Below the pieces are notes generated by a model that had not been told where the DNA came from, ran no database searches, and saw only the letters and a program-made list of their open reading frames with translations. Both the position numbers and the translations under genes were made by a program. Of a stretch of DNA of 64,000 bases, positions 48,066 to 52,916 are shown one piece after another. The stretch's first letter is position 1; the number at the start of each line of letters is the position of its first letter. The stretch comes from Sediminivirga luteola (lineage in GTDB: Bacteria > Actinomycetota > Actinomycetes > Actinomycetales > Brevibacteriaceae), in assembly GCF_014639315.1 (NCBI RefSeq), contig NZ_BMFY01000013.1, forward strand, positions 1 to 64,000. The letters run 5' to 3'.

Positions 48066-49753
48066 GCGCGACAGCTGAGCATGCGCCGCAGCCGCTGGCT
48101 GCGCCGCCCGTGCCCAGGTCGAAGGGCAAGGCGATCGTCGACTGGCTGACGACGACCGATCACAAGAAGATCGGCTACATGTACCTGGCCACGTCGTTCC
48201 TGTTCTTCCTGCTCGGCGGCCTGATGGCGCTGCTGATCCGGATCGAGCTGTTCGAGCCGGGCATGCAGCTGATCGAGACCAAGGAGCAGTACAACCAGCT
48301 GTTCACGATGCACGGCACCGTGATGCTGCTGATGTTCGCCACCCCGCTGTTCGCGGGCTTCGCGAACGTGCTCATGCCGTTGCAGATCGGCTCGCCCGAT
48401 GTGGCCTTCCCGCGGCTGAATGCCCTCGCGTTCTGGCTGTTCCTCTTCGGTAGCCTGATCGCCCTGAGCGGCTTCCTCACCCCGCAGGGCGCGGCCTCCT
48501 TCGGCTGGACCGCCTACGCGCCGCTGTCGAACACGACCTACACGCCGGGCGCTGGCGGGCACCTGTGGGTGATGGGACTGGCCCTGCAGGGCTTCGGCAC
48601 CATCCTCGGTGGCGTCAACTTCATCACCACCATCATCTGCATGCGCGCTCCGGGCATGACGATGTTCCGGATGCCGATCTTCACCTGGAACACCCTGATC
48701 ACCGCGGTGCTCATCATCATGGCGTTCCCGCCCCTGGCCGCCGCCCTGTTCGGCCTGGCCATGGACCGTGTCGCCGGCGGCCACATCTTCAGCCCCGAGA
48801 ACGGCGGCGCGCTGCTGTGGCAGCACCTGTTCTGGTTCTTCGGCCACCCTGAGGTGTACGTGATCGCGCTGCCGTTCTTCGGCATCGTCTCCGAGGTCTT
48901 CCCGGTCTTCAGCCGGAAGCCGATCTTCGGGTACACCGGCCTGGTCTACGCCACCATCGCGATCGCCGCGCTGTCGGTGACGGTGTGGGCGCACCACATG
49001 TACGTCACCGGTCAGGTGCTGCTGCCGTTCTTCGCCTTCATGACCATGCTGATCGCCGTGCCCACGGGCGTGAAGATCTACAACTGGATAGGCACGATGT
49101 GGCGAGGATCGCTGACATTCGAGACACCGATGCTGTGGTCTCTCGGGTTCCTGGTGACCTTCGTCTTCGGCGGCATCACCGGCGTGATCCTGGCCAGCCC
49201 GGTGCTGGACCTGCCGCTGTCCGACTCCTACTTCGTGGTGGCGCACTTCCACTATGTGGTGTTCGGCACCGTGGTGTTCGCGATGTTCGCCGGCTTCTAC
49301 TTCTGGTGGCCCAAGTTCACCGGGCGCATGCTGGACGAGCGGATCGGCAAGGTCCACTTCTGGACGCTGTTCGTCGGCTTCCACATGACCTTCCTGATCC
49401 AGCACTGGCTGGGCGCTAACGGCATGCCCCGTCGCTATGCGGACTACCTGCCGCAGGACGGCTGGACCTGGATGAACCAGCTCTCGACCGTGGGCTCGCT
49501 GATCCTGGGACTTTCGGTCATCCCGTTCCTGTGGAACGTGTGGGTCACCGCCCGCAAGGCGCCGAAGGTCACGGTGAACGACCCGTGGGGTTACGGCAAC
49601 TCGCTCGAATGGGCCACCTCCTGCCCGCCCCCGCGGCACAACTTCACCTCGCTGCCGCGGATCCGCTCCGAGCGTCCGGCGTTCGACGCCAACCACCCGG
49701 AGCTGCTGGAGGCATCCGCCCACCACCTTGAGAAGCAGGGGGTTACCAAGTGA
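48062..49753 (+). CDS. ctaD: Cytochrome c oxidase subunit I
   Basis: Catalytic subunit with heme a and the heme a3-CuB centre, 563 aa and 12 membrane helices. Ligand regions are [10 protein letters not shown] (heme a), [13 protein letters not shown] (CuB His-Tyr), [10 protein letters not shown] (CuB) and [10 protein letters not shown] (hemes). It pumps protons while reducing oxygen. Heme A comes from CtaB and CtaA, and insertion is assisted by SURF1, all encoded elsewhere in this window. Confidence 0.97.
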
Positions 49754-50151
49754 AGACCGCTGGCTGGCTCTTCTTCGCCGGAACGTTCTTCTTCATTCCG
49801 GCCGGACTCGTGTACGGCATCCTGACCGACTGGAACGAGCTGGTGGGTGCGCCCGCGGTGCTGCTGACCGGCGGCATGTCGCTCATGATCGGCGTGTACC
49901 TGCTCCTGGTGCACAAGAACTTCGGCGTCCAGTCGCAGGACCTCGAAACCGCTAACATCGAGGATGCCGATGCCGAGTACGGCTTCTACAGCCCCTGGAG
50001 CTGGTGGCCGCTGGTGCTCGGCGCCGGCGCGGCGCTGGCATTCGCCGGCGTGGCCATCGGCTGGTGGTCCGTCCCGTTCGGCGCGGTGATCGCCTTCATC
50101 GGCGTCTTCGGCTGGGTGTACGAGTACTCCTCGGGACAGCACGCCCACTAA
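49750..50151 (+). CDS. ctaF: Cytochrome c oxidase subunit 4 (actinobacterial)
   Basis: 133 aa with four membrane helices, the small actinobacterial oxidase subunit. Starts at a GTG overlapping the ctaD stop (GTGA). The segment [23 protein letters not shown] is typical. It is followed by a strong terminator, so the unit is ctaCDF. Confidence 0.93.
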
Positions 50152-50181: not shown

Positions 50182-50225
50182 ACGACGGCCGGCAGATCCT
50201 CCCTGTAGGGTCTGTCGGCCGTCGT
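50182..50225 (+). terminator. Intrinsic terminator of ctaCDF
   Basis: ACGACGGCCGGCAGA (50182-50196) pairs with TCTGTCGGCCGTCGT (50211-50225) over 15 bp with one G-T, 30 nt after the ctaF stop. The following sequence is only weakly T-rich. Confidence 0.7.
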
Positions 50226-50552
50226 CGTATTGTCACGCGCCCTGTGCCTGCTTGCGCCTGCCGTGCCTGCTGTGCCTGCCGGGGTTCAGGTGATGGCGGC
50301 GCCTAGAAAAGTGACCGATGCTGAGGCTGCCGGCCGGTCACGGGTTACGGCGCAGCGCCGTTCGCGGCTCCCGGACCCTCACGACGGTCCTCCCGGAGCT
50401 CTGTGCTGTGCTCCGGCCGCGGCCTTCATGAATGGCGTCGCTAACGTGCGTGACCGACAGCACGAGGACACTGTCAGTGAGGAGGCGCTCACGTTCGTCC
50501 GCGAGCACCGCCCCGAGCTGATGAAAGCGCGACGGGCTGCTGCTGGGCATCT

Positions 50553-50639
50553 TCTTCACGACGAAACGACCGGCTAGTGACGAAACACCACCGTAGACGG
50601 TGTGGTTCTGTCAACAGACGGTCGTTCTACGCCGCCCCA
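50553..50639. repeat. 87-bp palindromic direct repeat, copy 1
   Basis: 80 of 87 bases match copy 2 at 51026-51112, same orientation, 473 bp apart. The core 50565-50593 / 50598-50626 forms 29-nt arms around a TAGA loop; pairing is weaker here than in copy 2 because the right arm carries three extra changes. Confidence 0.8.
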
Positions 50640-51025
50640 CGCGACCCGCGCCCCGGCTCGGGGCGCAGCCTCACAGAGCGTCTGACGGCTGGGGTGAGCT
50701 TGGGGCGCCGGATTTTCCGCTTCAGGCGGCTGCCTCGGTCCGGGGAGACCGTCGGCGTATGTCTCCGAGCGGGGCATGCTCGTGCGCCTGTACGGTTCGT
50801 CGCTCCGGCTGGAAGCCGGTGTTCCGCGGTGCAGACGGTGTACAGGAGAGGCCGTAGCTGCGAATGTATACGAGGCCTCTACGCCGTGAACGCAGCGCGT
50901 GCCGTGACCACCGGTCTACTCGCGCGCCCTGTACGAGGGGATGCCCCGTGAGCAGTGCGCCCGCGCTCACCGGCCGGACCCACAACCCTAGCCACCCCGC
51001 CTCGCGCAGCCGCTGTGAGGCACCC

Positions 51026-51112
51026 TCTTCACGATGAAACGACCGGCTAGTGACGAAACACCACCGTAGACGGTGTGGTTCTGTCACTAACCGGTCGTTC
51101 TGCGGCGCCCCA
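51026..51112. repeat. 87-bp palindromic direct repeat, copy 2
   Basis: Arms 51038-51066 and 51071-51099 pair at 25 of 29 positions (24 Watson-Crick and one G-T) around loop TAGA. The outer AACGACCGG/CCGGTCGTT blocks are perfect. Both copies continue the same frame ending LHDETTG-stop on the plus strand, with the single base change in it synonymous. Confidence 0.8.
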
Positions 51113-51184
51113 TGCCGAGCGCGTATGAAGCGGACCGCGGAGGACTTGTCCGGGCTGCGCACGCAATATCGCCGGCATGCACGA

Positions 51185-51223
51185 CGAAGGCCGGCCCCCC
51201 GCGAACGGGGAGACCGGCCTTCG
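51185..51223 (-). terminator. Intrinsic terminator of ctaE-qcrCAB
   Basis: CGAAGGCCGG (51185-51194) pairs with CCGGCCTTCG (51214-51223), with an additional inner CCCC/GGGG. It lies 32 nt beyond the qcrB stop. It may serve as a terminator on both strands. Confidence 0.7.
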
Positions 51224-51254: not shown

Positions 51255-52916
51255 TCAGTGGGGGAGAGGCCGTCCCTGCCCGTCCTGATCGTTGCCCTCG
51301 GAGTCGAGGTGGTGGCCGTGACCCTCATTGTGGGCGTGAGCGGCCTCCAGCTCGGCCTTCGACAGCGGAGCGACGCGATCTTCGAAGAAGAACTTGGAGA
51401 ACCGTCCGCGCCACTTCTCAGCCGTGGAGATCTTGCCGTTCTCATCGGCCTGCGCCGGCACGTACTCCGGGGAGTCGAAGGCCACGAGCCTCCACGCGGA
51501 GTGCGGGTCGAGCGGTTCGTGCACCTCGATGAACTCACCGTGCGGCAGGCGCAGGATCCGGCCGGTCTCCCGGCCGTGCAGGGCGACCTCGCGGTCCTTG
51601 CGCTGCAGGCCCAGGCAGATCCGCTTCGTCACGATGTACGCGATGATCGGGCCGAAGAAGAACAGGAACCGGAAGATGTAGATCATGTCGTTCAGCGACA
51701 TGTGGAAGAACACCGCGATGAGGTCACCGGAGGCGCCGGCCCACATCACCAGGTACCAGACCACGAAGGCCACGCCGACGGCGGTCCTGGTGGGGGCGTT
51801 GCGCGGACGGTCGAGCACGTGGTGCTCACGGTTGTCCTTGGCCACCCAGGCCTCGAAGAACGGCCACACCGCCATGCCGACCAGGACGCCGACCATGATG
51901 ATCACGGCGACCAGGATGTTCATGCTGATCGGCCAGCCGAAGATGTAGAACTCCATCCAGCCCGGCGCGATACGCAGGATGCCGTCCGCCCAGCCGATGT
52001 ACCAGTCCGGCTGAGTACCGGCGGACACCGGTGAGGGGTCGTACGGGCCGTAGTTCCAGACCGGGTTGATCTGGAAGAACGCTGACAGGCCGGCGATCAG
52101 GGCGAAGACCAGGAAGAAGAACCCGCCTCCCTTGGCCGCGAACGTCGGCAGCACGGGCTCGCCCACCACATTGCGCTCGGTGTTGCCCGCCTGAGGCCAC
52201 TGGGTGTGCTTGTGCACCACGACGAAGATCAGGTGGATGGCGATCAGCGCGATGATGGCCGCCGGGATGATCATGATGTGCAGCGTGTAAAGCCGCGAGA
52301 TGATGTCGATGCCCGGGAACTCGCCGCCGAAGAGGAAGAACGAGATGTATGTGCCCACCAGCGGGATCGCCTTGATGATGCCGTCGATGATCCGCAGGCC
52401 GTTGCCGGAGAGCAGGTCGTCCGGCAGCGAGTAGCCGGTGAAACCGGCGGCCCAGGACAGCGCCAGCAGACCGACGCCGACGAGCCAGTTGAGCTCGCGC
52501 GGCCGGCGGAACGCGCCGGTGAAGAACACCCGGAGCATGTGGATCGAGACCGCCGCCACGAACAGCAGGGCGCCCCAGTGGTGCATCTGCCGGATCAGCA
52601 AGCCGCCGCGCAGCTCGAAGGAGATGTAGAGCGTCGACTGGTACGCCTGAGACATCTCCACGCCCTGCAGCGGGACGTACGGCCCGTCGTAGTGCAGCTC
52701 GCCCATCGCCGGGTAGAAGAAGAACGTGAGGTAGGTGCCGGTCAGCACCACGATGATGAAGCTGTACAGCGACACCTCGCCGAGCATGAACGACCAGTGC
52801 GAGGGGAAGATCTTACGACCGAACTCGCGCACCAGCTTGGAGGCGCCCATCCGGGTGTCTGCCCAGTCCGCGGCCTTGCCGACGGCGGTCGTCGGTTCAG
52901 GAGTGGTAGTGCTCAT
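51255..52916 (-). CDS. qcrB: Cytochrome bc1 complex cytochrome b subunit
   Basis: Quinol-oxidising membrane subunit, 553 aa, with the extended actinobacterial C-terminal cytoplasmic region after TM8 (about 390-553, His-rich end). Heme ligands lie in HHWGALLFVAAVSIHMLRVF and LHIMIIPAAIIALIAIHLI; the quinol-site PEWY equivalent reads TQPDWYIGWADG. It forms a supercomplex with CtaCDEF. Its ATG overlaps the qcrA stop. Confidence 0.95.
   Translation of the reverse strand: MSTTTPEPTTAVGKAADWADTRMGASKLVREFGRKIFPSHWSFMLGEVSLYSFIIVVLTGTYLTFFFYPAMGELHYDGPYVPLQGVEMSQAYQSTLYISFELRGGLLIRQMHHWGALLFVAAVSIHMLRVFFTGAFRRPRELNWLVGVGLLALSWAAGFTGYSLPDDLLSGNGLRIIDGIIKAIPLVGTYISFFLFGGEFPGIDIISRLYTLHIMIIPAAIIALIAIHLIFVVVHKHTQWPQAGNTERNVVGEPVLPTFAAKGGGFFFLVFALIAGLSAFFQINPVWNYGPYDPSPVSAGTQPDWYIGWADGILRIAPGWMEFYIFGWPISMNILVAVIIMVGVLVGMAVWPFFEAWVAKDNREHHVLDRPRNAPTRTAVGVAFVVWYLVMWAGASGDLIAVFFHMSLNDMIYIFRFLFFFGPIIAYIVTKRICLGLQRKDREVALHGRETGRILRLPHGEFIEVHEPLDPHSAWRLVAFDSPEYVPAQADENGKISTAEKWRGRFSKFFFEDRVAPLSKAELEAAHAHNEGHGHHLDSEGNDQDGQGRPLPH

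Follow-up and report, generated by a model that had tools for sequence, protein, structure and literature searches.

The two near-identical palindromes that lie between converging genes in the window, a 64,000-nucleotide stretch of Sediminivirga luteola DNA, belong to a previously unlisted, taxonomically restricted repeat family, and the existence of this family of interspersed palindromes is firmly established. Its members share a 19-bp register and a distinctive placement relative to genes, have a homologue in the sister genus, have been gained at some sites and retained at others, and display compensatory changes between their two arms. From these properties we infer, in conditional terms, what the elements do and what kind of enzyme may have spread them; the reading that we lean toward, with somewhat less than even confidence, is that they are REP/BIME-like stem-loops retained at gene 3' ends as two-way hairpin barriers between transcription units.

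The window pair and its family in the host genome

As the sequence-only reading had reported, the copies at 50553-50639 and 51026-51112 lie in the same orientation and agree at 80 of 87 positions. The 87-bp copies are real, with boundaries slightly displaced from the underlying unit structure of four times 19 bp. By a 19-mer profile scan and register layout, copy 1 occupies 50558-50633 (units 50558-50576 and 50577-50595 forward, 50596-50614 and 50615-50633 reversed) and copy 2 occupies 51031-51106 (units 51031-51049 and 51050-51068 forward, 51069-51087 and 51088-51106 reversed), neither being assigned a strand. Both enclose a 38-bp core palindrome (50577-50614 and 51050-51087) centred on CCGTAGACGG. 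The local direct repeat extends beyond the elements to 107 nt at 87% (50536-50642 and 51009-51115, both on the + strand). Each copy had been proposed to form a hairpin, and both do fold: the arms of copy 2 (51038-51067 and 51070-51099) are 83% complementary (25 of 30 positions), with folding energies of -39 kcal/mol on the + strand and -44.6 kcal/mol on the - strand (z of -6.2 and -7.7), and copy 1 folds more weakly (-30 kcal/mol, z of -2.8).

The pair is flanked by two separate inverted repeats, the ordinary terminator-like hairpins of the upstream gene (50182-50225, + strand) and of the converging gene (51185-51223, - strand). The two terminators recognized earlier at this site are therefore real, and the accompanying view that the palindromes are not needed as terminators finds support here and is consistent with the many other copies situated past ordinary hairpins. 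In the open reading frame list, the upstream gene (49750-50151, + strand) is cytochrome c oxidase subunit 4-like, has orthologues in 33 of the 35 genomes searched, and is presumably ctaF, judging by its sequence and its position in the cta/qcr cluster; the converging gene (51255-52916, - strand) encodes the cytochrome b subunit of the bc complex and, by sequence, we take it to be qcrB. A protein-like open frame at 50431-50577 (..EDTVSEEALTFVREHRPELMKARR..) reads directly into copy 1; it is possibly a gene remnant, and a Pfam search with it gave no matches. The Rfam 15 covariance models likewise gave no matches within the window.

Searching the host assembly (3.86 Mb in 45 contigs) with the 87-mer returned 72 strand-wise matches at approximately 39 places, of which the strongest beyond the window had E=8e-15; the window repeat is thus not a chance occurrence, and the possibility that the genome holds these two copies only, as a local duplication would have it, falls away. 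A half-site pattern gave 97 hits against 12 for its reversed control, nearly all of them in arrays, and the 19-mer word is found almost solely inside palindromes. The family is built from a 19-bp unit, GTGACAGAACNNCNCCGTA, repeated head-to-tail in strict 19-bp steps and then mirrored around the centre. The commonest element is 76 bp long, with two forward units followed by two reversed units; some copies carry three or four units on one side, and similarity among dispersed copies mostly ends at ~76-118 bp. Several unit positions and the centre are nearly invariant across copies. The arm sequences differ from copy to copy with their symmetry retained, and the outer arms are partly perfect and partly decayed. 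Nested insertion into the central TA was rejected as the source of the head-to-tail units, as it predicts a one-sided 21-bp step and a step of 19 is seen on both sides.

Longer arrays lie where contigs C4 and C16 end (L034 3036-3430 and L046 143-618); here many 19-bp units, several palindromes and a repeated segment of ~280 bp are present, together with one head-to-tail array that has no mirrored partner (L046 562-618). Since the assembly breaks there, the array may be longer than assembled. A search of plasmids, phages and viral contigs for the element gave 0 copies, and a literature search found no paper on palindromic repeats in this bacterial group.

Distribution, placement and pairing of the arms

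A BLAST search of relatives with a 68-mer of the host's own type missed the sister-genus family. A mismatch-tolerant pattern found one sister-genus palindrome, which led to a homologous family in 23 genomes with the same 19+19-bp (38-bp) core register, GCGCCAAAACNYCCCGTTG, and the centre TGCA. Two contig pattern scans that required GTG...CAC ends gave 0 matches, which is not evidence of absence, as most sister-genus copies have no such ends. A covariance model built from the sister family gave matches in 42 of the 60 genomes from the taxonomic family, the host genome included, with the related family present in 41 sister-genus genomes, mostly at ~5-30 sites per positive genome (counts are per strand and, owing to stricter filters, a lower bound). 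The family is missing from part of the sister genus, largely from smaller genomes, and an order-wide draw of 297 genomes produced only two single stray matches outside the taxonomic family. One of these two, L197, was an unrelated hairpin on inspection. Two sites are apparently common to both genera, the host's C9:76258 with G059 (both neighbours conserved) and C4:283252 with G073 (one neighbour conserved), which suggests that some copies date back to the split of the two genera. In G073, a head-to-tail run of 19-bp units extends past the hairpin (L139 1520-1600).

Mapping the copies onto genes revealed a pronounced bias. By gene calls from a codon-usage script, no host copy lies inside a gene. 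Eighteen of the 33 distinct intergenic host sites are convergent, against 12.4% of a background of intergenic regions of at least 100 bp in 400 kb of the host genome (p=8e-9). Divergent sites number two, where 28% would be expected, and no copy comes within 78 bp of a start codon. The sister-genus sites, a count that includes sites orthologous to one another, comprise 36 convergent, 21 tandem and 0 divergent sites, with 0 in genes. At tandem sites, the orientation of the central GTAGAC is unrelated to the direction of transcription.

The arms of the elements change together. Changes on both sides of the stem were found in 133 cells of the sister family against 79 when shuffled (slid controls gave at most 59) and in 92 cells of the host's own family against 66 when shuffled. 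One orthologous site next to the same gene could be followed through 12 species with pairing kept in nearly all of them, its outer arms reading CCAAGAG/CTCTTGG, CTGAGAG/CTCTCAG, CTAAGAG/CTCTTAG, CCAGGAG/CTCCTGG, CATTCAG/CTGAATG and CAGTCAG/CTGACTG. Parsimony on a tree of the neighbouring proteins counts 19 double changes from one Watson-Crick pair to another at this site; for the outer pairs 12-15, there are 12 double changes and only two one-sided breaks. Such changes directly indicate that selection or palindrome repair keeps the arms self-complementary. In the own family, positions 8-9 from the centre are paired in 13 and 15 copies against 17 and 16 expected and show no covariation; that these positions are neither corrected nor correlated argues against repair as the main cause.

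The mismatches that persist also carry a signal. Read in the sense direction, tandem sites hold 89 G.T against 57 A.C mismatches (sign-flip p=0.004), an effect that is modest and drawn from sites some of which, in the sister genus, are orthologous and hence non-independent; convergent sites hold 86 against 91, and the slid background at tandem sites 1681 against 1502. A stem acting in RNA would tolerate sense G.U above A.C at tandem sites and the two equally at convergent sites, and this is the pattern seen.

Proposed function and origin

Taken together, a model for the family can be proposed. The elements form what is probably an old interspersed palindrome family, in which head-to-tail 19-bp units, mirrored, can give stems of 30-38 bp closed by a tiny loop, and they occupy the 3' borders of transcription units, for the most part where two genes converge. 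The retained feature would be the stem-loop, most likely in RNA that read-through produces from one side or the other, and such an RNA stem-loop may serve as a two-way barrier or may protect 3' ends, standing behind the ordinary terminators. The orthologous F2 element lies 0-81 nt from the stop codon and could plausibly be the first hairpin behind that gene. Termination itself would be no more than a reserve function, if the elements have it at all, given that many copies lie beyond other hairpins and that T-runs, counted as 6 or more T among 8 nt no further than 30 nt from the stem, follow 2 of 148 strand-sides; at element-bearing 3' ends elsewhere, the hairpins that precede the element are at least as strong as those of control ends. 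The stem-loop leaves the extra head-to-tail 19-mers past the hairpin, and the unmirrored array at L046 562-618, unaccounted for.

These extra units point to a putative protein that reads the 19-mer on DNA, and the main rival of the RNA barrier, which we consider possible but clearly less probable, builds on them. The earlier suggestion of a binding site for a DNA-processing protein would agree with these units and with the exact 19-bp register. The 19-bp unit would be the DNA site of a putative binding protein with a role in nucleoid structure, topology or boundary formation, and inverted arrays would mark the quiet DNA between transcription units, similar to the gyrase- and IHF-bound BIMEs of E. 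coli. The exact 19-bp spacing, kept even in head-to-tail units that are useless to a hairpin, is what such a protein would call for, as are the near-invariance of several unit positions and of the centre, the independence of GTAGAC orientation from transcription at tandem sites, and the many copies situated behind other hairpins. However, positions 21-24 from the centre of the sister family, which hold 0.1-0.4 bits, are still paired (e.g., 24 of 35 against 10 expected), and plain duplex binding has no need of this. We give a similarly low probability to a broader form of the idea, in which mirrored 19-bp iteron palindromes mark transcription-unit ends throughout the taxonomic family, a putative protein recognises the 19-mer either as duplex or when extruded, and a putative non-HUH process multiplies the elements.

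A selfish or relic mobile palindrome, a MITE moved by a transposase in trans and tolerated only between 3' ends, is a shade less probable again. The ~39 copies, the patchy distribution among species, the avoidance of genes and promoters, and a gain at the window site are all in keeping with it. The spacer downstream of ctaF holds no clear copy in relatives (weak structural hits in L093 and L118, with spacers too diverged for the junction to be read), which makes a gain of the window pair in the host lineage most likely; as the copies are alike beyond the limits of the element, a local duplication probably produced one from the other. The earlier proposal of a small non-autonomous mobile palindrome is supported as regards dispersal, with ~39 copies, a related family in 41 sister-genus genomes and the window pair absent at the corresponding position in relatives; mobility in the strict sense would go beyond this. 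Against mobility by transposition, a scan of own and sister copies for target-site duplications, over offsets and lengths of 3-9, found no excess in either genus, conservation is highest at the centre of the element and falls outward, and copies are conserved at orthologous sites in many species. Among the pattern hits in the host genome there was no autonomous element carrying the 19-mers, and the outward decay leaves no conserved terminal inverted repeats for one to share. The suggestion that the palindromes are the abutted ends of a lost insertion sequence is rejected on the missing target duplications, the decay of conservation away from the centre and the failure to find an element with such ends, the nearest transposon (described next) included. 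In a transposase screen confined to the rve and Y1 families, the Y1/HUH (RAYT) transposase PF01797 was found in 0 of 60 genomes and in 5 control genomes, and the host genome gave four rve-type hits. One of these belongs to a Tn402/Tn552-like module of resolvase, rve transposase and ATPase (L083 5482-8277, contig C19) ~1.6 kb from a palindrome; it was rejected as the parent, its ends being unrelated and devoid of the 19-bp unit. Under the favoured stem-loop reading, copies would instead have arisen by some non-HUH duplication route, together with local duplication as in the window.

Paired elements enclose genes at several loci. In the convergent F2/F1 spacer (L200-L211), a gene for an FNT-type transporter lies between two palindromes in approximately half of the sister species, and the remaining species have either a single palindrome or two that are separated by 127-143 bp, as if the F1 and F2 elements bracket a point of gene gain or loss. 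In several sister genomes (L216 4748-5532, L143, L141, L170), an XRE regulator and a small membrane protein have palindromes on both sides. An autonomous mobiliser was sought among the genes between paired elements and discarded: by names assigned by eye, these are the FNT-type transporter, the XRE regulator with its small membrane protein, a DUF559-like gene and others, with 0 transposases.

Least probable, and in our view improbable, is that the elements have no function, their symmetry stemming from quasi-palindrome template-switch correction during replication and their apparent conservation from conversion or recent spread; symmetry despite copy-specific arms and the mix of perfect and decayed outer arms in own copies would fit correction, but the mismatches at positions 8-9 stand uncorrected within a good flanking stem, and at the 12-species site the core is conserved between species, with a surrounding spacer that is unalignable among the more distant ones.

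Comparison with known systems

Interspersed palindromes are well described in Proteobacteria, where they are linked to RAYT transposases. The ends of Tn402-, Tn7- and IS21-type elements carry iterated transposase sites, and their ~19-22-bp head-to-tail repeats facing each other resemble the present arrays; unlike them, this family has no conserved termini, target duplication or carrier element. It also departs from Rho-independent terminators, in which a G+C-rich hairpin is followed by a T-run.

REPs are 20-40 bp long; their stems measure 5-13 bp in the GTAG group and 8-9 bp in the CGTC group, an unpaired tag stands at the foot, and the phyla reported for the two superfamilies exclude Actinobacteria (PMC3733652). 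As with REPs and BIMEs, the present elements are interspersed, intergenic, hairpin-forming, present in dozens of copies, patchy between species and often paired (PMC3733652), and they share the preference for spacers close to 3' ends where the neighbouring genes converge or run in the same direction. They differ in length (76 bp), in arms of 30-38 bp and in their mirrored 19-bp units. The unpaired GTAG tag at the foot is lacking; GTAG occurs only at the unit joints and the centre of the own family, and is absent as a kept feature in the sister genus. As no Y1 (PF01797) transposase is present in the 60 genomes, this is not a classical REP/RAYT system. CGTC REPs are likewise palindromes without a dedicated transposase (PMC3733652), but the present family has neither the unpaired CGTC tag nor the CCA tail, and it has a much longer stem and the 19-bp iteration. 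DNA uptake sequences of Neisseria and Haemophilus that are paired to form terminators also place a short word, inverted in pairs, at gene 3' ends (PMC2267715); an uptake word was rejected here, as the 97 hits lie nearly all in arrays and are not thousands of single copies.

Among interspersed palindromes, the family thus stands out by its lack of a RAYT enzyme, its unusual iterated build and its strong placement rules. It is rare for such repeats that one element can be traced at an orthologous site through a dozen species, with double mutations that preserve pairing, and this makes it directly testable across related species whether repeats of this type are selfish or serve a function, a long-standing question. 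Should a protein prove to read the 19-bp iteron and a non-HUH process to multiply the elements, the family would count as a novel type of interspersed palindrome system and not as one more REP.
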